A stretch of DNA of 41,630 nt, from the NCBI GenBank assembly GCA_947302765.1, contig CAMYWN010000002.1:1-41630 (forward strand), in the 5' to 3' direction. The DNA comes from an uncultured Candidatus Saccharibacteria bacterium (GTDB taxonomy: Bacteria > Patescibacteriota > Saccharimonadia > Saccharimonadales > Saccharimonadaceae). The notes beneath the pieces are model-generated. The model had not been told where the DNA came from and made no database searches. It was given only the letters and a program-made list of their open reading frames with translations. A program made the position numbers and the translations under genes. This document shows, in pieces, positions 2,992 through 33,312 of this stretch. Numbering within the stretch: the stretch's first letter is position 1; each line of letters begins with the position of its first letter.

Positions 2992-3018
2992 AAAAATAAT
3001 CCTTTCTTGGGAAAACTT

Positions 3019-3198
3019 CAGGTATCATCAGTCAAAGTCACCAGATACCAAAAACGCCAAATCGAAGGACGTAAAGGTCAAATCTATGATTTGACCGCCG
3101 AAGGGGCGAAGCGATGTGATAAAATCTCTGATTTATCACATCACGAAGCTCCTGAGATTGGCGTTTTGGTATTTGGGACTTTGACAACATAATATCTG
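3019..3198 (-). promoter_or_regulatory. Long branched stem structure in the pnp 5' leader region
   Basis: Outer arms gtcaaagtcaccagataccaaaaacgccaaatc (3031-3063) and gattggcgttttggtatttgggactttgac (3156-3185) are near-perfect inverted repeats; inner hairpins ggtcaaatc-tat-gatttgacc (3076-3096) and gatgtgataaaatc-tct-gatttatcacatc (3113-3142). Confidence 0.8.
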
Positions 3199-3245
3199 CC
3201 GTCTTCCCAATTTGTTAAATATCCTGCCCCCAATTATACCAAATC

Positions 3246-3274
3246 TTGCCTTTTAGAGCAAAATATGGTATAAT
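3246..3274 (+). promoter_or_regulatory. Promoter of alarmone synthetase gene (TTGCCT-N17-TATAAT, TGg extended -10)
   Basis: ttgcct 3246-3251, tataat 3269-3274. Confidence 0.7.
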
Positions 3275-3332
3275 AGAAAAGGTTACGTTTAGTTACTTGA
3301 TTAACAGTACTTTAGAAAGCGAGGTCGAAATA

Positions 3333-5601: not shown

Positions 5602-6507
5602 TTATTTGCAAAAATCATCCAGTTTTATCGCGTCATCTACGCTGTATTTTCCCACCTTCGTCCGCCGCAATGCCGTCAGATACGCCCCAAGCCTTAATTT
5701 CTCACCAATATCTTCGGCTAACGTTCGAATGTACGTTCCGCTCGATACGGCACATCTTATTTCAAGCTCCGGCCATTCATATCGCAAAATCTCAATCTCG
5801 TAAATTTCCACCTCCCGACTCGGCATTTCAAAATCTTCACCTTTCCGAGCTAGCTTATACGCACGCTCCCCACCAACCTTAATCGCCGAATACCTCGGCG
5901 GCACCTGTTTTATTTTTCCAACAAAAGATTTAATAACAGTCTCAATCGTCTTCAGAGAAGGCAAATCTTGACAAGATAAGGGATCATGAACTGGCTGAAC
6001 AGCGCCAGGAGCAGACGAAAAGTCATGAGTCGACTGAACAACGTCAGAAGCAGACGAGGAACCATGAGCTGATTGAACGGCGCCAGAAACAAGCGCCGCG
6101 CCCTGAGTTGAATATGATTGAATCTCCCCTTCGGGATCACCCGTAGTAGAAACGTACCCAAGTTTCATTGTCGCTACATATTCTTTGTCCAGCTTCAAAA
6201 ATTCTGCAGATTTTTTCGTCATCTTCCCGGTCAAAACAATCAAAAGCCCCGTAGCAAATGGGTCAAGCGTACCCGTATGCCCCACTTTTACTTTCTGACC
6301 CAACTCCTTCCGCATCTTGCCACGCACTTTCGCCACAACCCCAAACGACGAAATCCCGCTCGGTTTATCAATCAAAATCATTCTGTCTTTCGGACGGTCG
6401 CTACTCTCCGCTTTCAAATAGTTGTCACTCTGCACTCTCAAACGGTTATCACTTTGCACCTTCAAATAGTCGCCGCCTTGCGCCTTCAAATCATCATCAC
6501 TTTGCAT
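5602..6507 (-). CDS. truB: tRNA pseudouridine(55) synthase with N-terminal and internal tandem-repeat insertions
   Basis: IDKPSGISSF, GHTGTLDPFATGLL (catalytic Asp), QVPPRYSAIKVGGERAYKLARKG; alternative start at 6381 would exclude the N-terminal repeats. Confidence 0.93.
   Translation of the reverse strand: MQSDDDLKAQGGDYLKVQSDNRLRVQSDNYLKAESSDRPKDRMILIDKPSGISSFGVVAKVRGKMRKELGQKVKVGHTGTLDPFATGLLIVLTGKMTKKSAEFLKLDKEYVATMKLGYVSTTGDPEGEIQSYSTQGAALVSGAVQSAHGSSSASDVVQSTHDFSSAPGAVQPVHDPLSCQDLPSLKTIETVIKSFVGKIKQVPPRYSAIKVGGERAYKLARKGEDFEMPSREVEIYEIEILRYEWPELEIRCAVSSGTYIRTLAEDIGEKLRLGAYLTALRRTKVGKYSVDDAIKLDDFCK
5968..6084 (-). repeat. 39-bp (13 aa) tandem repeat inside truB, 3 copies
   Basis: GAVQSAHGSSSAS / DVVQSTHDFSSAP / GAVQPVHDPLSCQ. 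Confidence 0.85.
6388..6507 (-). repeat. 24-bp (8 aa) tandem repeat at truB N-terminus, 5 degenerate copies
   Basis: MQSDDDLK / AQGGDYLK / VQSDNRLR / VQSDNYLK / AESSDRPK. Confidence 0.85.
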
Positions 6508-6540
6508 AGAGACAATTATAACATGTGTTATAATTTAATC
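6508..6540. promoter_or_regulatory. Palindromic bidirectional leaderless promoter for truB (-) and PRC-barrel gene (+)
   Basis: attataacatgtgttataat: TATAAT on + at 6529-6534 (6 nt to ATG 6541) and on - at 6520-6515 (7 nt to ATG 6507). Confidence 0.75.
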
Positions 6541-7143
6541 ATGTTAGTGTATAATTCTCGCCTTATTGGTACTCCTATTCTTAGCATTCAAGCCTCAAGC
6601 CCCATCGGCCGCATTGACTCTATCATCGTAGACCCAGACAACCTTAAAATCGTCGCCTTCAGGCTAAGCGGCCCCACTATTTCAAAAGGCTCTAATAGCT
6701 TACTCGATATCAAAAGTATTCGTGAGTATTCAGATCTTGGTATGATTATCGACAGCACCGACGAGCTCATCGCCGATGATGACGTTGTTAAAATTAGCAA
6801 AATTCTTGCCCTCAATTTCGACCTTATCGATCTCAAAGTCGAAACCAAAAAAGGTTCCAAACTTGGTAAGGTTTCAGCCTTTACTGTCGACTCTAATGAT
6901 TTCACTGTCAAGCAAATCATCGTTAAACGCCCACCACTTAAGGCTTTCATCGACCCCGAGCTCACCATCTCTTGTCGAGAAATCGTCGAAATCACAGACT
7001 ACAAAATCATCGTCAAAGACGAAGAAAAAGTCCTCAAACGTCGCGCCGAAAAAGAAGATTTCATCCCAAATTTCGTCAACCCCTTCCGCGGACAAAACCT
7101 TGCCCAAATCGAAGCAGACAAAGAAGAAAAAGAAGCTAATTAA
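6541..7143 (+). CDS. PRC-barrel domain protein
   Basis: MLVYNSRLIGTPILSIQASSPIGRIDSIIVDPDNLKIVAFRL and repeated KGSKLGKVSAFTVDSNDFTVKQIIV pattern; start 6541 placed downstream of -10. Confidence 0.75.
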   Translation: MLVYNSRLIGTPILSIQASSPIGRIDSIIVDPDNLKIVAFRLSGPTISKGSNSLLDIKSIREYSDLGMIIDSTDELIADDDVVKISKILALNFDLIDLKVETKKGSKLGKVSAFTVDSNDFTVKQIIVKRPPLKAFIDPELTISCREIVEITDYKIIVKDEEKVLKRRAEKEDFIPNFVNPFRGQNLAQIEADKEEKEAN

Positions 7144-7292
7144 TACCATCGGCATTCAAAACCATTAAACCCTAACTTATCAAATAACCCGCACAAACTT
7201 CAATCGCATCCTCATTCATGAGTCATACTTGAAACTACAAGCCCCCCAAGCTTACATTTTCAAAAACATAATCCAAGAATCGCTAAGCTAGC

Positions 7293-8072
7293 TCAATCTT
7301 CCTCTTCAAGCACCACTTGTCGCACTAAATCATACGAAAACCCTTGCCTACATAAATAAGCAATCAGTTTTTCGTCATCATATTTGGCTCGCTTCCTTGC
7401 AATTATCTTTTTAATTTCCTCTTCATCTACTCGTCCACCTAGGACCTCCTCAACCACGTCCTGCTCAATCCCCTTTTTGATTAGCTCCATCTTAAGTCTC
7501 TTCTGGCTAACCCCCTTTTTCACAAACCGGTTTTCCACATACCATGCCGCAAATTTCCGATCATCCACATAACCACGTTCACATAATCTCTCTACGATTA
7601 AATCAGTAAAATCATACTTCCGCAATGCGCCACGTCTCGACTCCCTCTTACTAACCCGCCTAGCATTCGCATCCTCGCCCTTTGCTATCAAATCTGCAAT
7701 TTCCCGCTCCTTCTGCCACTCTCTCTTCCTCTCCTCCGCTTCATCTCTCATTTCCCGCCTCTTGAGATAATCCCTTAATTCTCCCACGCTCCTCGGCCTA
7801 ACCAAAACCCATTCTAGCGCCCTCTGGTATGCCTTGCCAAACTCCGAAGCCCGTTTCATCTCCTCTAACTCTGTCTCATTCAATGCCCGCCCAACTTTCA
7901 CACCAAAATCCACTACCTGCGCCACATCTAACGAAAAGCTATATTTTCCATCTACAAAAACATTCACTCGATTCGGATTCTTCGCTCCCTGCTTCAAATT
8001 AGTAATGAGAAGTGGGGCCCTAGATTCCTCTTCCTCGTCTAGTTCACCATCTGCCAATCTATATATTTGCAC
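7293..8072 (-). CDS. recX: Regulatory protein RecX
   Basis: Repeated three-helix RecX modules (RALEWVLVRPRSVGELRDYLKRR, LIVERLCERGYVDDRKFAAWYVENR...KGVSQKRLKMELIKKGI); apparent GTG start. Confidence 0.82.
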   Translation of the reverse strand: MQIYRLADGELDEEEESRAPLLITNLKQGAKNPNRVNVFVDGKYSFSLDVAQVVDFGVKVGRALNETELEEMKRASEFGKAYQRALEWVLVRPRSVGELRDYLKRREMRDEAEERKREWQKEREIADLIAKGEDANARRVSKRESRRGALRKYDFTDLIVERLCERGYVDDRKFAAWYVENRFVKKGVSQKRLKMELIKKGIEQDVVEEVLGGRVDEEEIKKIIARKRAKYDDEKLIAYLCRQGFSYDLVRQVVLEEED

Positions 8073-8154
8073 TATTGACTATTCCTTAATCTTATGTTAT
8101 AATTAAATATTCTACTTTACATCAACCAAAAGCCAAAAAGCCGTCCTATTCGCT

Positions 8155-8663
8155 CTAATTTAACAACCCCCACGCCCTTAGCCACACGTCAAGTTGCAAA
8201 AACGATAGATCGGCACGTCTTAAAGGTTCTCTTGCGAAGGTCTTCCGAAAATTCTCCATTTCATCATACTTGATCCATTTCACTTTTGATACTTCACCGT
8301 CGTCAAATATAAATTTGTCTGGTCGACCCGTCCAATCCACTAAATACATCCAGGCCATTGTGTTCTGATCTACTAACACGCTTGTTACAAATTTCAACTC
8401 ACCCATCTCAATCTTCGCACCGATTTCCTCCTTTACTTCCCGAATTGATGCTTCCACCGGTGTCTATCGACTTCCATCGAGCGCTTCTGCCACAAAAACT
8501 CCAATTCACCATCAAAATTAATCCTGTACAGAAAAACTACCACACCTCCAATAATCGCCTTCGATTCCCCGTACTTCGGGTTTCCTAACGCCGAATCCCA
8601 CCCCTCCCCCGGGATAGCTTCGCCATTCGGCGCATAAACTTGCCACATTTCGTCATGATGCAT
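8155..8663 (-). pseudogene. Nudix hydrolase broken by a frameshift/deletion inside the Nudix box
   Basis: N-terminal part MHHDEMWQVYAPNGEAIPGE...FLWQKRSMEV in one frame; C-terminal part TPVEASIREVKEEIGAKIEM (REVKEEIG core) in another; the first half of the Gx5E motif is missing. Confidence 0.7.
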
Positions 8664-8675
8664 AATTCTCCTTTC

Positions 8676-8801
8676 TTGATTAGGTATTATTGTGAATGCT
8701 ATACGAGGATAGAGGAGCAACGGAGCGAGCCGTACTTATGGTACGGTGAGCGAGTAGCGCACCTCTAGACGAAGTAGAGCACCACAAGAATGCCTAATCA
8801 A
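8676..8801. repeat. Long imperfect inverted repeat between recA and Nudix pseudogene, including the recA stop codon
   Basis: ttgattaggtattattgtg (8676-8694) pairs with cacaagaatgcctaatcaa (8783-8801); inner arms agaggagc...gagccgtac and gtacggtgagc...gcacctct. Confidence 0.8.
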
Positions 8802-9840
8802 TTGCCTTTTCGCGGACTTTCGCCTCAATCTCCGCCATCAGCTCCGGCTTTTCGCGGAACAATTTCTTCACCGCTTCGCGTCCCTGTCCCAGCGTCTCGC
8901 CGTTATACTTAATAAATGCTCCGGCCTTATCCAGTACGCCATATTGCACACCAAGGTCGAGTACGTCTCCAGACTTCGATATCCCCTCATTATACATAAT
9001 ATCGAATTCCGCCGTACGAAATGGCGCCGCAATCTTATTTTTCACCACCTTAATCTTCGTCCGGTTCCCAGAAATATTATCGCCATCCTTAATCTGCCCA
9101 ATCCGCCGAATATCCACTCGCACGCTCGCATAAAACTTTAGCGCATTACCACCCGTCGTGGTCTCTGGATTACCAAACATCACACCAATCTTCATCCGAA
9201 TCTGGTTGATAAATATCACCGTCGCTCGCGACTTCGAAATAATCCCAGTTAACTTCCGCATCGCCTGCGACATTAATCTCGCCTGGAGCCCCATCTGCGC
9301 GTCACCCATATCGCCATCAATCTCTGCCTGTGGCACCAACGCCGCCACCGAGTCTACCACAATCAAATCCACCGCATTGGATCTTACCAATGTCTCGCAA
9401 ATCTCTAACGCCTGTTCCCCATTATCTGGCTGCGAGATTAATAAGTTCGCCGTATCGACTCCTATCTTCTTAGCATAAGCCGGGTCCAACGCGTGCTCCG
9501 CATCAATAAATGCCGCTTGCCCGCCCTGCTTTTGTATTTCTGCAATCGCGTGAAGCGCCAAAGTCGTCTTACCAGAAGACTCTGGCCCGTATATCTCAAT
9601 AATCCGCCCCTTCGGCCAACCACCTCCAAGCGCCAAATCTAGCGACAAAGACCCCGACGGCAAAAGTTCTACATCCATTTTTGGCGTCTCACCTAGCTTC
9701 ATAATCGAACCATCACCAAATTGCTTCGTAATCTGCGCAATCGCCAGCTTCAAAGCTTCACTTTTTCCGTCCTTAGCTTTATCGGCCGCACCGCCATCAG
9801 TCTTATTATTATTTTTATCCACCGCATCCTTTTTTGTCAT
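8794..9840 (-). CDS. recA: Recombinase A
   Basis: [100 protein letters not shown]. Confidence 0.98.
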
Positions 9841-9979
9841 AAATATTACCTTTCTTTTATAACATTATAATACATTTTCTCACTCTATGTAACACGCTCC
9901 AAAGTTCATTGCAACCCCACTACCGCACAATCCCTAGCATAACCAATTTCCTCCCCTCAAAATATGTTATAATCATACT

Positions 9980-10990
9980 ATGATAACATACGAAAATGTC
10001 CCTATTTCAAAGCTCACTACCATGCGCCTCGGCGGCCCCGCCCGCTACGTTATTGAGATCGAATCGCCGCAAGACATTATCGACGCGTACGATTTCGTCG
10101 AAGAATTTCATTATCGCACTTTCATCCTAGGTTATGGCGCAAACACTATCGGCCACGACGAAGGCTTCGACGGTGTCATCATCAAGAACCGCATACTCGG
10201 CATCACAAAAACCGACCTCGAAAACGGCGCCGAACTCGAAATCATGGGCGGCGAATACTGGGACGACGTAGTCGCATTTGCCTGCAATAATAATCTTACC
10301 GGTATCGAGGCCTTAAGCAAAATTCCAGGTTTCGCTGGAGCTGCCCCAGTTCAAAATATCGGCGCATACGGCCAAGAACTCGCCGACACTTTCGTCTCGG
10401 CCGAAGTTTACGACACCAAAGAACGCCAGTTCAAAACCCTCACCAAATCCGACATGCAATTTTCCTACCGTCACAGCCTTCTCAACACCTCCGCCAAAGG
10501 CCGTTTCTTCGTAGTCTCTATCAAGCTAAGGCTCACCTACGGCCAAATGTCACGCCCCTTCTACAAATCCATCGAAACCTATCTCGCCGAACACAACATC
10601 ACCGACTTCAGCCCACAATCTATTCGTTCTATCGTCAGCGCCATTCGCGCCGATAAACTCCCCGACCCCCTAGAAATCGCCAGCGCCGGTTCCTTCTTCA
10701 AAAACATCTATCTCTCCCGCGAAGAAGCCGAAAAGGCCGAAGAAAGAGGCTACCCAGTCCATCACGGTCAAGATGGTCACAAAATTAACTCCGGTTGGCT
10801 CATCGAGCAAGCCGGCTTCAAAGGTCAACTCCTCCATGGCATCCGCGTCAATGAAAAAGCCTGTCTCGTTCTCATCAACGAATCCGCCACCTCTTACCAA
10901 GACCTCAAAAAAGCTCGCGACGAAATTGCCAGCACAGTCTACGACAAATTTGGCTATTGGCTAGAACAAGAGCCAGAAGAGCTCCAGTAA
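9980..10990 (+). CDS. murB: UDP-N-acetylmuramate dehydrogenase
   Basis: NTM-like TTMRLGGPARY, GIEALSKIPGFAGAAPVQNIGAYGQEL, SYRHSLLN, SAGSFFKNI, NSGWLIEQAGFKG. Confidence 0.93.
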   Translation: MITYENVPISKLTTMRLGGPARYVIEIESPQDIIDAYDFVEEFHYRTFILGYGANTIGHDEGFDGVIIKNRILGITKTDLENGAELEIMGGEYWDDVVAFACNNNLTGIEALSKIPGFAGAAPVQNIGAYGQELADTFVSAEVYDTKERQFKTLTKSDMQFSYRHSLLNTSAKGRFFVVSIKLRLTYGQMSRPFYKSIETYLAEHNITDFSPQSIRSIVSAIRADKLPDPLEIASAGSFFKNIYLSREEAEKAEERGYPVHHGQDGHKINSGWLIEQAGFKGQLLHGIRVNEKACLVLINESATSYQDLKKARDEIASTVYDKFGYWLEQEPEELQ

Positions 10991-11103
10991 CCCTTCTCCG
11001 CAGATCGTCAAGAGCCCCATTCGTCAAGCACAACCATTAAAATTATAGCCAAAAACGTCATTATCTGACTAAAAATCATCATTTCACTAAGGAAAGGATT
11101 ATT

Positions 11104-11886
11104 ATGAAAATTCTAAACGGCCAAGACCTAGCAGATTTCGTCAAAGCCCGTCAAGCACAACAAGTTTCCACTCTTCAAAACCCTCCAAAACTTCTCATCA
11201 TACGAGACAGCGACAACCCAGTCATCACCAAATACGTCAACCTTAAGATTGAATACGGCAACGATATCGGTATTACGGTCGAGGACTACCTTGCTAAAGA
11301 TTCAGCCGATATCGCCACAAAAATCCAATCCGCCAATACCGATCCAACCATTTCCGGCATTATCCTCCAATTACCCATTCTAGAAAAAGCCAAAACCGAC
11401 GAACTCTGCAACCTTATCGCTCCAGCAAAAGACGTCGACGGTCTCGGCCAAAACGCTAAATACGACTCTGCCACCGCCACGGCTATTAACTGGCTGCTCG
11501 CTGGCTACGACATCAAACTAAATACCGCCAAAATCGCCATCGTTGGTCGCGGCAAACTCGTCGGAGCACCTTTGTACCGCATGTTTATTAACTCCGACTA
11601 CGATGTCACTCTCTTTCATCGCGGCGACGACTTGACAAAGCTTAACCAGTATGATATAATCATCACCGCAACCGGCGTTCCCGGCTTGGTTTCTGATTCA
11701 ATGATTAAGCCTGGCGCCATTCTCGTCGATGCTGGTACCGCCAGCGAAGACGGAGTCTTAAAAGGCGACACCGCCCCAGAAATCCGCAGCCGAACCGACC
11801 TTGCCGCCATTACACCCACCACCGGCGGCGTCGGCCCGCTCACCATCTCCTGCCTCTTCGACCACGTCATCCAGGCCAGCAACTAA
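11104..11886 (+). CDS. folD: Bifunctional methylene-THF dehydrogenase/cyclohydrolase
   Basis: ILQLPI, PAKDVDGLG, IVGRGKLVGAPL, TGVPGLV, TPTTGGVGPLTISCLFDH; SD aaaggatt. Confidence 0.93.
   Translation: MKILNGQDLADFVKARQAQQVSTLQNPPKLLIIRDSDNPVITKYVNLKIEYGNDIGITVEDYLAKDSADIATKIQSANTDPTISGIILQLPILEKAKTDELCNLIAPAKDVDGLGQNAKYDSATATAINWLLAGYDIKLNTAKIAIVGRGKLVGAPLYRMFINSDYDVTLFHRGDDLTKLNQYDIIITATGVPGLVSDSMIKPGAILVDAGTASEDGVLKGDTAPEIRSRTDLAAITPTTGGVGPLTISCLFDHVIQASN
11632..11660 (+). promoter_or_regulatory. Perfect-consensus promoter-like sequence inside folD
   Basis: ttgaca (11632-11637) + 17 nt + tataat (11655-11660), with TGa extended -10. Confidence 0.5.
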
Positions 11887-18570: not shown

Positions 18571-20466
18571 TCAATCCTCGGGGACGAATTCTCCGTCCCC
18601 TCCTTCAGTTTCAGTTGGCGCTGTTGCGCCGTCCGCAGCACCTCGGTTCGAGACAGGATCCTGTGTATAGTCCATTTTGTTTTCATGGTCTACAACCGAT
18701 TTCTGCTCTTGTTTATGCTGCTCAACAGGCGGTGTCTCCGGCTTTTTCTGGGGCGTCTCTGAGACAGGCTTCGTTTCCTGTCTCGGATCGCTCTTCTGCT
18801 CCTCACCAGAGCTACTACCGCCAGAAGAACTGCTGCCTCCACCGCTATTGTCTCCGCCACCTTTGGACGCCTCTCCCCTGTTTACGGGATCCTGCTTCGG
18901 AGCCTTGGGCTTCGGAGTTGGATCGCTTCCGCCACCAGGAACCGGTGTCGGCGTTGCTGTCGGCTTCGGCGTTGGCGCTGCTGTCGGCTTCGGTGTCGGC
19001 GTCGGCGGATCATAGCCCTTCGGCATCTCCGGCACCTTCTCCGTCGGGATATTCATCTCCTTAGAAATAGGAGTAACAGTTCCGTCCCTCCGGAAAACGG
19101 CACAGACATTACAACATTGAAGCCTGAAGCCCAGGCCAACGTCATTTTGGCGATCACCCCCCTTAGTCCTGAGCCAAGCAATCAAAATGTCGCCACTCTG
19201 ATGAGTCTCAGCGACCACTACGTGCGGAATTCCTTCTCGAGTATAGATGTCGAGATAATACTGGTCTATGACATCCTCACTCTGGACTAGGTCCAATTCT
19301 CTGGTCTCGTTGTTCAGCATATCCAGAAACTTTTCGGAAAGATTCACGAAAGTTCCGGGCGTATTGAAAAAGTCCTCAACCATAAGGTTTATGGACTTTG
19401 CCCACTCGGCATTGTCCCCATTGTAGTAATCACCACAAAGGTCAGTATGCCTGATCTGGTCCGCGGTCGAAATTGCTTCGGCCAGAATAAACGGGTCCTC
19501 TTCCATCATTGCTTTGATGGTTCGCCAATAATCGGACTTCGTTTTGTCCTGGCTAAGGATGTTTGGCCCAAAATAACTATTGTTATCCGGGTCATCATCC
19601 GTCGTCAACGGAAAATTATGAAACACAAATTCCGGATGCTTCTTTACAACACCAGCATAAGTATTCCATTTTACCGGGACAGATTCCTCAGCTTCCGCCT
19701 CGGTTTCTGTCGCAGCTGCTACAGACTCCTCTGCCGCCTCAGCGGCGACAGATTCATCATCTGCCACCTCGGCAACGACAGATTCGTCATCAGTCTCAGC
19801 CGGAGCGGCCTCCTTAGAGTTGCCAAAGATTCTTCCGAAGAATTCCTTCAGCCCCTCAAAGGCCTCACTGTCTGTAGCAAAGACAGACGGAATGCCCGCC
19901 TTGACTGATTTCGACTGCGGTACTGCTACTGCAGCAGATACGACCGAAGAAATGGTCATGATCACCACCAATGCGATAGCAATCCACCGCACAGCAGCGA
20001 CACCTCGGCTGTACCGCCTCTGACGGCAGAAAGTCGACCAGACAGCGGCTAGCAGCACAATAAAAGCAATTGCCAGAGCCCAGCTCCCGAACACCATCGC
20101 TGAATGATTACTGCCAAGCCCTCTCACGAAACAATCGAGAGAGTAAGCCAGCGGCAGCCAGCAAAAGCAAGGGATAAGGATAGTAGCACAAATAGCACTA
20201 CTTACCCTCAGAGAGTCCCTTTCTCCAGCAGCAATATCGCGCCACGCAATAAAAGAATACACAATATTAATGCCAGCAACGAGTTGCAGCCCAAAGCTCA
20301 CCAAGGGACGAGAAGCTACCGCAAATCTCATTACAGCCGTCGCCATAAGCGCAACAACTGCCCCGTTTGTCGCTGCTCTACGCTTTCTCTGCCCCGTTGT
20401 CTTCGGGAAAATAGCATAGAACAGAAGACTACAGATCACAAAATAAAACACATACATAACTAACAT
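18571..20466 (-). CDS. Multi-TM membrane protein with extracytoplasmic domain and P/T-rich tail
   Basis: About 6 N-terminal TM segments, Ala/Glu-rich stretch, folded region, PTPTPKPTAAPTPKPTATPTPVPGGG linker; start chosen at ATG 20466 with gggagg SD. Confidence 0.75.
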   Translation of the reverse strand: MLVMYVFYFVICSLLFYAIFPKTTGQRKRRAATNGAVVALMATAVMRFAVASRPLVSFGLQLVAGINIVYSFIAWRDIAAGERDSLRVSSAICATILIPCFCWLPLAYSLDCFVRGLGSNHSAMVFGSWALAIAFIVLLAAVWSTFCRQRRYSRGVAAVRWIAIALVVIMTISSVVSAAVAVPQSKSVKAGIPSVFATDSEAFEGLKEFFGRIFGNSKEAAPAETDDESVVAEVADDESVAAEAAEESVAAATETEAEAEESVPVKWNTYAGVVKKHPEFVFHNFPLTTDDDPDNNSYFGPNILSQDKTKSDYWRTIKAMMEEDPFILAEAISTADQIRHTDLCGDYYNGDNAEWAKSINLMVEDFFNTPGTFVNLSEKFLDMLNNETRELDLVQSEDVIDQYYLDIYTREGIPHVVVAETHQSGDILIAWLRTKGGDRQNDVGLGFRLQCCNVCAVFRRDGTVTPISKEMNIPTEKVPEMPKGYDPPTPTPKPTAAPTPKPTATPTPVPGGGSDPTPKPKAPKQDPVNRGEASKGGGDNSGGGSSSSGGSSSGEEQKSDPRQETKPVSETPQKKPETPPVEQHKQEQKSVVDHENKMDYTQDPVSNRGAADGATAPTETEGGDGEFVPED

Positions 20467-29012: not shown

Positions 29013-30839
29013 ATGAACGTTTTAATCGTAGGCACAGTTCTAAAAGACGTTTATCTTAATCTCGATTCCAGAAAAGAATCTTTTGAAATAGATAAACATG
29101 GCACCAGATGGCTAAATCTTAGTTTTGATGCGAGTAAACATTACTTTTTTCACCGCAAAAGCTGCCTTGGTGGTGCTGCTGTCTCCTTAGAGGTTCTTTC
29201 TAAAATGGGCCTAGAAGCAAATATTATTAACTCCAATCTCCATCTCACCGAAGACGGCCTATCATCATCATCCGCCGATTCCTGCCGATATATTCTCATT
29301 TCAGACCAACAAGCCTGTTACTTTGCACCTAGCGATTTTGCTAACACACCCTTTATTCCCCCTGAAGAGTCCTACGATTATATCTTCGTCGACCGCTCCG
29401 CAAACCTCAAAGAAAGCACAATTAATCGCCTCGTATCATATTTAGAGTCCCACCCCCGTACTATTTTCGCATTCTACCTACCCGCAACGCACAACCCAAA
29501 ACTCGAGTTTCTGGCTCAAATCGCCGATATCGTTTTTGTCGAAACCCCTTCATCAAACTCATCCAATCTATCACTAAAAAACGACTCTCGGCTCCTTGTT
29601 TATCTAGACGAACATTCAATTTCTTGCCGCAACCTCACCGAGCCCATTTCTCCTAACCGTGTTGATTTATCTACTCATCTATCCACCTACACAACTGCCT
29701 CAGCCACCATCTTGGGCGGTATCATTCTCGGTCTTTCCCTTGAAACTTGCCTCAAAATGGCCCGCATTAACGTCGAAAACTCCAAACTAGATTCCACATT
29801 ATCTCTTGCAAAACTGAGGTACCTTGCCAGTACTAGCTCCTCCAGCCAAAATCTCGAGCTCATCGCCGCCAACCTCCTTATTAAACCCAAAGGCATTCTT
29901 GCCGCCGACGAATCTGGTGGCTCAATTAAGAAAAAATTCGCTAAACTAAACATCCCTGATACCTACGAGTCCCGTCGCTCTTACCGCAATATCCTCATCA
30001 CGGCTCCCGACCTAGAAAAATACGTTAGTGGCGTTATCCTATTTGACGAAACGGCTCGTCAAAGTACCAACACTGGCGAAAACTTCGTTGAATACCTCAC
30101 TCGTCATCGCATCATTCCTGGAATTAAGGTCGACCAAGGCCTCCAAAAGTACCCTAATTCCGAAGAAACTTATACTTCTGGCTTAGATGGCCTAGATCGT
30201 CGTCTTAATGAATACTACAAAATGGGCCTTCGCTTCGCTAAATGGCGCGCCGCCTTTGAAATCCGCCTAGATCATGAGAATCGCATCCTAACCCCCACCA
30301 AACATGCCGTTATAAATAACTGTTATATTCTCGCCAAGTACGCCAAAACCTGCCAAACGCACGGCATCGTACCTATCGTCGAACCAGAAGTTGTTTATGA
30401 CGGATACTATAGCATCGAACAATCCGCCGCAGTGACCGCAAAAATCCTCGACATCCTCTTCTCGGAGCTAAATACCGCCGGTGTCAATCTTGCAGCCTGC
30501 ATCCTCAAGACCAGCATGGTCATCGCTGGCAAGCACTATCCTTCTCCTTCTACTCCAAAAGCAGTCGGCTCTACCACCGCCAAAGTTCTCAAAAACCACG
30601 TTCCACCAGAGCTCGCCGGCATTGTCTTTCTCTCTGGCGGCCAAACCGTGGAGCAAGCCACCGACAACCTCGCTGCAGTCATCAAAAACGGTCCTTTCCC
30701 CTGGCCTGTCACCTTTAGTTTTGCTCGCGCACTTCAAGACCCCGCACTCTACGCCTGGAAGGGTGACAATTCTAACGCCGAGCCAGCAAAAAGCGCCCTG
30801 ATCGAGCGCCTCATTGCCAATACTTCTGTATTAAATTGA
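29013..30839 (+). CDS. Fusion: PfkB-like (degenerate) domain + class I fructose-bisphosphate aldolase
   Basis: N-terminus MNVLIVGTVLKDVYLNLD...CLGGAAVSLEVLSKMGLEANII and TTASATILGGIILGLSLETCLKMARINVENS; C-terminus GILAADESGGSIKKKF...GVILFDETARQ...PGIKVDQGL...KWRAAFEI...PIVEPEVVYDG...LSGGQT (class I FBA). Confidence 0.85.
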   Translation: MNVLIVGTVLKDVYLNLDSRKESFEIDKHGTRWLNLSFDASKHYFFHRKSCLGGAAVSLEVLSKMGLEANIINSNLHLTEDGLSSSSADSCRYILISDQQACYFAPSDFANTPFIPPEESYDYIFVDRSANLKESTINRLVSYLESHPRTIFAFYLPATHNPKLEFLAQIADIVFVETPSSNSSNLSLKNDSRLLVYLDEHSISCRNLTEPISPNRVDLSTHLSTYTTASATILGGIILGLSLETCLKMARINVENSKLDSTLSLAKLRYLASTSSSSQNLELIAANLLIKPKGILAADESGGSIKKKFAKLNIPDTYESRRSYRNILITAPDLEKYVSGVILFDETARQSTNTGENFVEYLTRHRIIPGIKVDQGLQKYPNSEETYTSGLDGLDRRLNEYYKMGLRFAKWRAAFEIRLDHENRILTPTKHAVINNCYILAKYAKTCQTHGIVPIVEPEVVYDGYYSIEQSAAVTAKILDILFSELNTAGVNLAACILKTSMVIAGKHYPSPSTPKAVGSTTAKVLKNHVPPELAGIVFLSGGQTVEQATDNLAAVIKNGPFPWPVTFSFARALQDPALYAWKGDNSNAEPAKSALIERLIANTSVLN

Positions 30840-30916: not shown

Positions 30917-31597
30917 CTATGCAGCCTCTTCAATGTCACCTTCCGGCTTAGCGTCGCCACTTTCAGCTGGAGCCTCCTCGTTAGCAGCCTCAGTAGCCGC
31001 TTTTTCCTCCGCCTCACGCTTTTCCGCTTCAGCGGCCGGGTCATAAAGCGACACTACTACTTGCTCCATATCAAGCTCCTTATCAGCAAATTCCACACCT
31101 TCGGGCAGCTTAATATCTGCAATCGTCAACTTATCATCCAACTCCTTAAGATTGGCAGCATCTACCGTCAATTCCTTCGGTAAATCAGAAGGCTTCGCCT
31201 TTACGTCAATCTCATCAATCTGATGCGACAAGACATAATGAAAGGTCTTCGCTGCCTCGGACTGTTCAAAATTCGTTATTACAATCGGAGTAGTCGCCTC
31301 CACCGCTTCTTTTGCCGAAACCGCCAAGAATTCAATATTGATAATTCTACGCGAAACCGGATTAAATCCTACATTCTTTATGATCGCGATTCTTTTCTTC
31401 CCTTCAATATCCAAATCAATCGGCGAATGATAGCCTGCTTTCTCTAAAACTTTCTCGGTTTCCACATAAAAAGAGGCCGTCAAAATCGGCGCTTTACCGC
31501 CATAAACCACCGAAGGAATCATTCCTTCATTCCTTAAAGCCGCTAACTTCTTACCAGTCAATTCTCTATTTTTTAACTTTAACTTATATTCAGCCAT
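30917..31597 (-). CDS. rplY: 50S ribosomal protein L25/CTC family
   Basis: LKNRELTGKKLAALRNEGMIPSVVYGG, FNPVSRRIINIEFLAV, acidic Ala/Glu tail. Confidence 0.9.
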   Translation of the reverse strand: MAEYKLKLKNRELTGKKLAALRNEGMIPSVVYGGKAPILTASFYVETEKVLEKAGYHSPIDLDIEGKKRIAIIKNVGFNPVSRRIINIEFLAVSAKEAVEATTPIVITNFEQSEAAKTFHYVLSHQIDEIDVKAKPSDLPKELTVDAANLKELDDKLTIADIKLPEGVEFADKELDMEQVVVSLYDPAAEAEKREAEEKAATEAANEEAPAESGDAKPEGDIEEAA

Positions 31598-31771
31598 AAA
31601 AATCCTTTCTACTTCCCCTTATTTTATCACCCCACCTCTTAAAAGTAAACCCCGCTCCTCATTTAATAAGATGACATTTTAATAAAATATGCAACATCTT
31701 AGCGCAATATCGATGTCCACCCTTGCTTCCCTATCCAATACATCCCTACCCCCATAATAGCATTACGGCAT

Positions 31772-31797
31772 TAAAAAGGACACTCAACTGAGTGCCC
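31772..31797 (-). terminator. Intrinsic terminator of the 31819-32392 operon
   Basis: Minus strand gggcactcagttgagtgtcctttttaa. Confidence 0.75.
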
Positions 31798-31818
31798 TAT
31801 CTTAGCCTACTTGTAAAG

Positions 31819-31998
31819 CTACGACCATGTCGAGCCGTCCGGCTTTTGTCTTCCGCAGGAGTTACTGGCATCAGGACCAGTCTTACGGCCAACTTCAGAT
31901 TTTGATTTTTCCTCTCTCAACTCCGCCTCGATTCTTGACCACTTTACGGAGCCTTTTTGATATCCCGGTTTACTCACCACACCATGCCCACTACGCAT
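31819..31998 (-). CDS. Small unknown protein (59 aa), translationally coupled
   Basis: MRSGHGVVSKPGYQKGSVKWSRIEAELREEKSKSEVGRKTGPDASNSCGRQKPDGSTWS*; SD gagaggaggta; start overlaps the stop of ORF 31991-32392; absent from the ORF track (length below cutoff). Confidence 0.6.
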   Translation of the reverse strand: MRSGHGVVSKPGYQKGSVKWSRIEAELREEKSKSEVGRKTGPDASNSCGRQKPDGSTWS

Positions 31999-32392
31999 CT
32001 CGAATTACCTCCTCTCTTATTTTACCATTAAATGGTGCGCCGTTCGATGAAAGAATATTAAATACTCCATTCGCCGAGTTCAGTTTTCCATTCCTCAAAT
32101 AATACCCCCATCGCTTACCATCACGACCTTTTGGGAGGATTAATACGTTACTTGATAATCGAAGGACAAAACCGTCTTCGTCTGTCGTCGAGCCAGGGTT
32201 CATCTTACCGAGTATCTTAAGAACATAATCCTGAGGCAGCTTATAGCTCCATCGACCACCAAAGCACCACATACGCAGTTCGTCATCCTTAGTCCATACC
32301 GGCTCCCCAATCGAGCGTGGTTCATCTACTGTCTCCATATGATTAGCTAAGAGGTTCGGGAACATTCCCGTAATTAGTCCGCCAAAACACAT
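31991..32392 (-). CDS. Hypothetical protein (133 aa)
   Basis: Complete ORF with SD (gtaggagatgtattt-ATG), preceded by a long leader and consensus promoter. Confidence 0.65.
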   Translation of the reverse strand: MCFGGLITGMFPNLLANHMETVDEPRSIGEPVWTKDDELRMWCFGGRWSYKLPQDYVLKILGKMNPGSTTDEDGFVLRLSSNVLILPKGRDGKRWGYYLRNGKLNSANGVFNILSSNGAPFNGKIREEVIRDA

Positions 32393-32777
32393 AAATACAT
32401 CTCCTACTTTTTAAAGAACTACTAAAGGAAAATTGGCTCGAGCAATGCCGCCCGAGCCATAATATGTAATGTTATCCCCCAAAAGGCTTTTTGTGAAAAT
32501 ACCTTTTCAAGGAATAACAGAGGGGGCTGACGCCCCCAGCCCTATTTGAGAGAAGACGTAGACTGATGATACTCCCCTATAGTCCCTACGTAAGGCCATG
32601 GCGAGGCGTGTTTACTGTCCCGCCGGACTACTCAGTGTTGTCATCTTAGTTACCCCCTTTCTTCCCTCTATCAACTGGATGGGATGACTAAAGACAATAA
32701 AACTAACATGTTTTTCCTATCATCCCCAATCATCCCATCCCGTATTTGGGCCTTTTAAATGTACTTAGTTACCTATA
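32393..32777 (-). ncRNA. Long structured leader RNA (~385 nt) of unknown class
   Basis: Runs from a perfect-consensus promoter to ORF 31991-32392; stems ggatgggatga/tcatcccatcc, acgtagact/agtccctacgt, gggggc-tgac-gccccc, ggctcg.../...cgagcc; no long ORF. Confidence 0.5.
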
Positions 32778-32783
32778 TTCACT

Positions 32784-32812
32784 ATTATAGCACAGATTGC
32801 TATTTCTGTCAA
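32784..32812 (-). promoter_or_regulatory. Perfect consensus promoter TTGACA-N17-TATAAT with TGc extended -10
   Basis: Minus strand ttgaca (32812-32807), tataat (32789-32784). Confidence 0.9.
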
Positions 32813-32838
32813 AAGCCCTACCCTCGGAATCTCAGGGT

Positions 32839-33312
32839 TTAGACCCGTTTCACCTTCACCATTGCAGGGCGGAGCACCTCTCCTTGATAATAGTACCCAG
32901 TCCTTAGAGTCTCTGCCACTACTTCCTTTTCACCGTCGCCCTCTACCATTACCGCATCATGAATGCCCGGGTTAAATTCCGTCCCTTCATCTGAAACTAT
33001 CTTAGCAAGTTCCAACTCCTTCATCGTCTTCGCTAACACCCCGGATACTGGACCTAGCTCATTCTTATAGCTCGCCACCGCTCTATCTATATCGTCAATT
33101 AGTGGCAAAAACCTCATAACCGTCGCAAACTTCGCCGTCTTAGCCGCATTTTCGCGTTGTACCTCCACCTGCTTACGATAGTTCTCAAAATCTGCCCTCG
33201 TTCGCTGCAAATCGTTAGTCAGCTCAGCAATTTTTGCTTTAGACTCTTCTGAAATTTTAGTAATTTCCGCTTCAAAATCACCCTTGCCTTGTGTTTTTTC
33301 TACTTTTTTCAT
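32839..33312 (-). CDS. grpE: Nucleotide exchange factor GrpE
   Basis: LQRTRADFENYRKQVE, FLPLIDDIDRAVA, GTEFNPGIHDAVM, VVAETLRTGYYYQGEVLRPAMVKV. Confidence 0.93.
   Translation of the reverse strand: MKKVEKTQGKGDFEAEITKISEESKAKIAELTNDLQRTRADFENYRKQVEVQRENAAKTAKFATVMRFLPLIDDIDRAVASYKNELGPVSGVLAKTMKELELAKIVSDEGTEFNPGIHDAVMVEGDGEKEVVAETLRTGYYYQGEVLRPAMVKVKRV

Follow-up and report, generated by a model that had tools for sequence, protein, structure and literature searches.

A structured leader before an orphan gene pair in a gut Saccharibacterium resembles the leaders of other accessory genes

A two-gene unit inserted between grpE and rplY

The stretch of DNA analysed here (41,630 nt, hereafter the window) is contig 2 of the 0.92-Mb, 110-contig genome of an uncultured Candidatus Saccharibacteria bacterium. 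The L25 protein that it encodes has named relatives in Candidatus Saccharibacteria of the ruminant gut, Ca. Nanosyncoccus alces among them, and the source organism is a tiny gut Saccharibacterium close to Ca. Nanosyncoccus. The minus strand of the window carries a small unit flanked by grpE, itself downstream of hrcA, and by rplY (Table 1). It comprises a promoter, a leader of about 385 nt, genes for proteins of 133 and 59 residues and an intrinsic terminator, all of them present as described in a first-pass annotation of the DNA.

The inserted nature of the unit had escaped that annotation. We compared the grpE-rplY spacer in 35 relatives in which these two genes are adjacent. It measures 26-157 nt in 30 of them and typically contains little beyond the rplY promoter and Shine-Dalgarno (SD) sequence, as against 1,241 nt in the window, where an rplY promoter of the relatives' type is retained at the far end of the insert. 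Other relatives harbour different sequences in the spacer, namely a convergent gene for a small membrane protein (L057, L070, L074 and L080), a gene for a surface-protein-like product (L105) or a fragment (L069). The spacer thus takes up insertions repeatedly in the genus, and their cargoes are not homologous. Neither transposase or recombinase genes within the window's insert nor inverted repeats at its ends were found. Outside the insert, at 29013-30839 on the plus strand, the window also codes for a 608-aa protein whose C-terminal half is a class I fructose-bisphosphate aldolase, preceded by an N-terminal part of ~280 residues.

The promoter of the unit belongs to a pattern that is frequent in this lineage. 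Perfect promoters of this type occur 32 times in the 0.92-Mb genome of the organism, as opposed to 0 for a reversed control pattern, which indicates that they are real rather than chance matches. All 147 genus genomes that were searched contain the pattern too, the reversed control being near zero.

Table 1. Features of the two-gene unit and of its surroundings in the window
Feature	Position	Strand	Basis or remark
grpE	32839-33312		Pfam GrpE; flanks the unit, downstream of hrcA
Inserted segment, ~1.2 kb, from grpE to the ancestral rplY promoter	31650..32838	-	Spacer comparison
Promoter TTGACA-N17-TATAAT with extended -10 (TGc)	32784..32812	-	12/12 consensus match
Linear block TAACTAAGTACATTTAAA, between promoter and P1	32754..32771	-	Common to other structured leaders
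P1, uninterrupted 26-bp hairpin with several G-U pairs	32677..32740	-	z -7.0
Possible leader peptide MTTLSSPAGQ*	32612..32644	-	Sequence only; purine-rich SD-like GGGGG upstream
6-bp G-C hairpin, terminator-like	32522..32537	-	Pattern and fold
18-bp leader hairpin	32471..32518	-	Fold
Terminator-like hairpin, 11 bp, tail ATTTTCCTTT, just before the first gene; candidate attenuator	32434..32459	-	Pattern and fold, z -5.2
Gene for 133-aa orphan protein	31991..32392	-	ORF, SD AGGAG, coding-like codon use
Gene for 59-aa orphan protein, own strong SD AGGAGGT	31819..31998	-	Overlaps the 133-aa gene by 8 nt
Intrinsic terminator ending the unit, 9 bp + TTTTT	31777..31798	-	Pattern and fold, z -5.0
rplY promoter of the relatives' type, retained	31649-31621
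rplY	30917-31597		Ribosomal_L25p; other flank of the unit

Products of the two genes

An ATG-initiated ORF of 133 codons arises in only 0.5% of dinucleotide shuffles of the region, and this frame has the best codon usage of the six, within the range of the window genes. The 59-aa frame also has the best codon score of its six frames, at a weaker level than that of the 133-aa frame.

Both proteins are orphans in the sets that we searched. No relative of the 133-aa protein was detected in 60 relatives, in the 173 other genus genomes (174 searched), in the genome_contigs, viral_contigs, phage and plasmid collections or, at E 0.001, in 393 class genomes, and the 59-aa protein had no relative in the sets searched either. 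The protein family libraries had no match for either of them. The 133-aa protein gave no match in Pfam, NCBIfam, PADLOC or PDB; its hits to phrog_15756 of PHROG (E 0.022) and to a PDB entry (E 0.12) are not significant. Its single-sequence structure prediction has a mean pLDDT of 45. Weak, repeated matches to the OB domain of XseA in the class search (E 0.004-0.1) were set aside, as profile comparison yielded a probability of 2% with no Pfam support.

Structure of the leader RNA

The leader (32777-32393, 385 nt) folds at -143 kcal/mol, compared with -102 +/- 5 for shuffled sequences (z -7.7). Its complement folds at -104 only, and the transcript strand has 24 G-U pairs versus 6. The pairing is thus strand-specific, which speaks for a structure formed by the RNA. 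Folding alone would not carry the case, since 200-nt windows elsewhere on the contig have z values similar to or stronger than that of the leader. The segments 3001-3300 (on both strands) and 19301-20000 reach z values down to -10, below that of the leader; the strong folding of both strands at 3001-3200 is probably due to a large inverted repeat.

The most prominent element of the leader is the hairpin that we call P1. An 11-bp perfect stem had been described there; it exists, but it is only the outer part of an uninterrupted 26-bp helix. Two terminators are predicted between the promoter and the first gene by pattern and fold (32537-32522 and 32459-32434), in agreement with the two hairpins noticed initially. 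The second one has an imperfect tail (ATTTTCCTTT). Terminator-like sites are frequent in this region, with 11 on 3.5 kb versus 2.5 expected. The sequence GCTTAAGAACATT could conceivably be read as a boxA-like element. We noticed no counterpart of the possible leader peptide in the leaders of the relatives.

No Rfam model reached its gathering score in the window leader, and the sub-threshold matches were to models of eukaryotic or unrelated RNAs; the leaders of the relatives described below gave no Rfam match beyond chance either. The leader thus matches no known riboswitch or housekeeping RNA. As the unit also has no ligand-linked gene context, the earlier suggestion of a riboswitch finds no support.

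P1-type hairpins in leaders of sister genomes

We built a covariance model of the window's P1 alone (R1) and searched 174 genomes of the genus. The best match, at E 2e-4 per genome, came from the minus strand of genome G078, where the hairpin follows a 12/12 promoter and precedes an ORF of 121 codons. The next-best match (G122, E 0.043) is an ordinary hairpin (z -1.8) and was rejected as a relative of P1. A model made of the two hairpins, the window's P1 and that of G078 (R3), retrieved G119 at 1.4e-9 and G106 at 7.4e-9. All three genomes have a 12/12 promoter before the hairpin and the same gene after it; this gene codes for a Crn4 ring nuclease (PDB 9r7b, E 4e-9; PADLOC Unk_01, 1e-24).

We rate as fairly low the probability that P1 resembles the crn4 leader hairpins by chance, the unit being an isolated orphan insertion that happens to contain a strong hairpin. 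In favour of chance, an E-value of 2e-4 per genome over 174 genomes corresponds to ~0.035 matches expected, and model E-values are rough. With R1, however, only two non-self matches at E <=0.05 were obtained in 174 genomes versus ~9 expected, which indicates that the E-values are not inflated. To guard against circularity, natural hairpins were scored against the window's P1 alone. The sense strands of the G078, G106 and G119 hairpins scored 24-27, well above 58 background hairpin strands (mean 10.5, sd 2.1, maximum 16). This preference for the sense strand and the common order of promoter, hairpin and gene also argue against chance.

Covariation in the leader had been proposed as a test, and P1 provides some. 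In the four-sequence alignment of P1, 90.5% of the cells pair, compared with 36-62% for slid partners, and three pairs change on both sides versus none in the slid controls. These changes are suggestive only, being few and with two of the three distinguishing the window from the other sequences. Where the crn4 hairpins have an A-C mismatch and an internal loop, the window's P1 is paired throughout. The window leader has no close homologue, which limits the covariation analysis to P1, and a model of its 3' part found nothing outside the window.

The similarity between the window and crn4 leaders is limited to P1 and a short block. Alignments of the flanks are not significant, with G078 a marginal exception, a point in favour of chance. 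Upstream of the hairpin, the block GCTTAAGAACATTAAGACCAATAYGAC may have a counterpart in the window's TAAGTACATTTAAAAGGCCCAAATACG, although pairwise comparisons are not significant for G106 and G119. The crn4 and MYG1 leaders carry GCTTAAGAACATTAA, which has weak similarity to the window block TAACTAAGTACATTTAAA (mean score p 0.034 versus shuffles).

The crn4-type leader also precedes different genes, since in G013 the same leader sequence (AAGCTT...GCTTAAGAACATTA, followed by the hairpin) sits directly before MYG1, behind a promoter with one -10 mismatch. In G106, three genes come after crn4, coding for an AAA-type protein with a Cas_csx3 domain at its end, an HD_4 protein and MYG1; a phage-type integrase lies on the opposite side. 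We take the Cas_csx3 domain to represent a ring nuclease family as well. This row of genes (L150, G106:C20:58000-71748, 5698-11485) brings two ring-nuclease families together in one Saccharibacterial cluster. No relatives of crn4, csx3 or MYG1 were found in the 713 kb (of 919 kb) searched of the window's own genome. The P1-arm pattern occurs in 18 stretches of viral contigs, about chance level, and none of them has a matching hairpin.

A second type of leader and its reuse

Two further loci, in G018 and G023, were fetched solely because their promoters resemble that of the window. Where the window has TAACTAAGTACATTTAAA, the G018 leader reads TAACTAAGTACATTAAA; next come a 22-bp hairpin and a nucleoside deoxyribosyltransferase-like gene. 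This leader shares 14 identical nucleotides with that of the window (TAACTAAGTACATT). This common linear block is evidence separate from P1 against a chance likeness. The combination of promoter and block was found only in the window in 530 kb of its own genome, with 0.14 occurrences expected by chance. The leaders of G023 and G018 are ~86% identical over ~165 nt, and the G023 cargo is a 120-aa protein unrelated to that of G018. Modular reuse of a leader is thus directly evidenced, as the two leaders match while their genes differ.

Other leaders of this general kind were observed. A third structured leader, likewise conserved, contains AATTAGCTAGGAATRTC and a hairpin GAGYAGCGYCAAGCC... and lies behind perfect promoters at L113 (G078:C2, 5016-4700, minus strand), L150 (~11580-11830, plus strand) and L151 (~2125-1900, minus strand). 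Its gene codes for an unknown product of 496-562 aa (MKKTMAIVEAREMFGETCYETETGF...) and adjoins MYG1. In the window's own genome, a gene for a 198-aa protein (MEESFLALHEFIRLGC...) has a 12/12 promoter and a structured leader of ~245 nt (L170, G000:C19, 4682-4437, minus strand), an element of which, ACATTA...TAGTTGTCA, resembles the G018 and G023 leaders.

Possible function of the leader

The initial reading of the locus as a leader-controlled two-gene unit of no known type is supported, and P1 recurs in the leaders of other accessory genes. We give roughly an even chance to a specific form of this reading, an accessory cassette with its own promoter, a coupled gene pair and a cis-acting attenuation leader that belongs to a lineage-specific, reused set. 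The two small genes would be translationally coupled and driven by their own strong promoter. The leader would be one of several lineage-specific structured leaders joined to varied accessory genes, elsewhere crn4 and the exonuclease gene MYG1, and it would most likely act in cis. P1 may be a recognised or a structural element, and the choice between a short RNA of ~340 nt from the leader and the full-length mRNA would be made at the hairpin that immediately precedes the first gene. The two terminator-like hairpins ahead of the first gene suggest attenuation with P1 as the element recognised, in the manner of the LoaP-dependent dfn leader, and we infer that attenuation is the likeliest role of the leader with respect to its cargo genes; a trans factor would presumably act on the leader.

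Attenuation is not a trait common to the leader set, since the G106 and G018 leaders have no terminator-like site. It may be that the terminators are an addition in the window cassette, or that P1 has a different mode of action, such as an effect on stability. Along this line, the leader could be passive or constitutive, a stabiliser of the mRNA or an insulator of a strongly expressed accessory pair, with no regulated termination. We consider this unlikely, though related leaders do keep the hairpin without terminators, the tail of the candidate attenuator is imperfect and strong promoters with structured leaders precede several accessory genes. The occurrence of two terminator-like hairpins in one leader, in a region rich in such sites, speaks against it. 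Furthermore, typical mRNA stabilisers sit at the 5' end, whereas P1 lies ~40-90 nt from it.

It is less probable still that the structured RNA, ~340 nt long and ending at the 32434 hairpin, is a stand-alone non-coding RNA, with the ORFs incidental or driven by read-through. Its strong fold, the terminator-like hairpin at its 3' end and the lack of relatives of the proteins fit such an RNA. However, both ORFs have strong SD sequences and overlap in a manner typical of coupled translation, the 133-aa frame is gene-like in codon use and of a length rare in shuffles, there is a terminator behind the second ORF, and in every relative a gene comes directly after the P1-type leader. The toxin-antitoxin-like pair evoked at first, whether of two proteins or of an RNA and a protein as in type III systems, has very little probability: two small overlapping ORFs, a structured RNA that has a terminator-like hairpin ahead of the first gene and a lineage-specific insertion would suit it, but neither protein matches a toxin, antitoxin or defence family, the leader is devoid of tandem repeats and related leaders precede enzymes (Crn4, MYG1) rather than toxins.

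The recurrence of P1 before unrelated, defence-linked genes of sister species points to an undescribed leader-RNA family that would be reused with different genes. A bolder proposal, which we regard as possible though doubtful, is that undescribed structured leaders serve Saccharibacteria as a portable control module for unrelated accessory genes, including those of ring nucleases, enzymes that break down CRISPR second messengers. Several anti-phage or counter-defence genes might in this way be switched on by a single trans factor, and the window cassette would belong to the set and bring two new proteins of this sort. A role of these two proteins in conflict with mobile elements is a guess based on the company of the related leaders.

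The unit is not explained by any of the RNA or toxin-antitoxin families tested, and its interest rests on the leader. Conservation of a leader while the gene changes is an uncommon pattern, and it offers a handle on how newly acquired genes are controlled in reduced epibionts. Because of the link to crn4, csx3 and MYG1, a place of the orphan cargo in conflicts with phages or other mobile elements becomes a testable idea. Work on regulatory RNAs of Saccharibacteria appears to be scarce, and a limited literature search retrieved no study of such leaders.

Comparison with known systems

Type III toxin-antitoxin systems have the same order of RNA, terminator-like hairpin and gene, but the window unit has neither tandem repeats nor a toxin family match; in particular, no ToxN-like endoribonuclease match was obtained for the 133-aa protein in Pfam, NCBIfam, PADLOC or PDB. 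The architecture of the window leader is similar to that of the LoaP-dependent dfn leader of Bacillus velezensis, which combines a hairpin required for antitermination with an intrinsic terminator ahead of the first gene (PMC12691694). In that system, a NusG paralogue binds a small UNCG-loop hairpin before polyketide operons (PMC12691694). The window hairpin, in contrast, has 26 bp.

Crn4 ring nucleases, of which phage and plasmid copies have been proposed to be anti-CRISPRs (PMC12830947), are encoded behind related leaders, but the 133-aa and 59-aa proteins have no similarity to Crn4. The crn4 leaders (G078, G106 and G119) differ from that of the window by their Crn4 cargo, internal mismatches in the hairpin, a shorter length and, in G106, the lack of terminator-like sites. 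They resemble it by a perfect extended -10 promoter, a long hairpin with arms GGUGGGAUGA...UCAYCCCACC or YCAYCCCACC and a small accessory gene. The window has two traits of this P1-leader set, a consensus promoter directly upstream on the same strand and a long hairpin with the common arm sequences.
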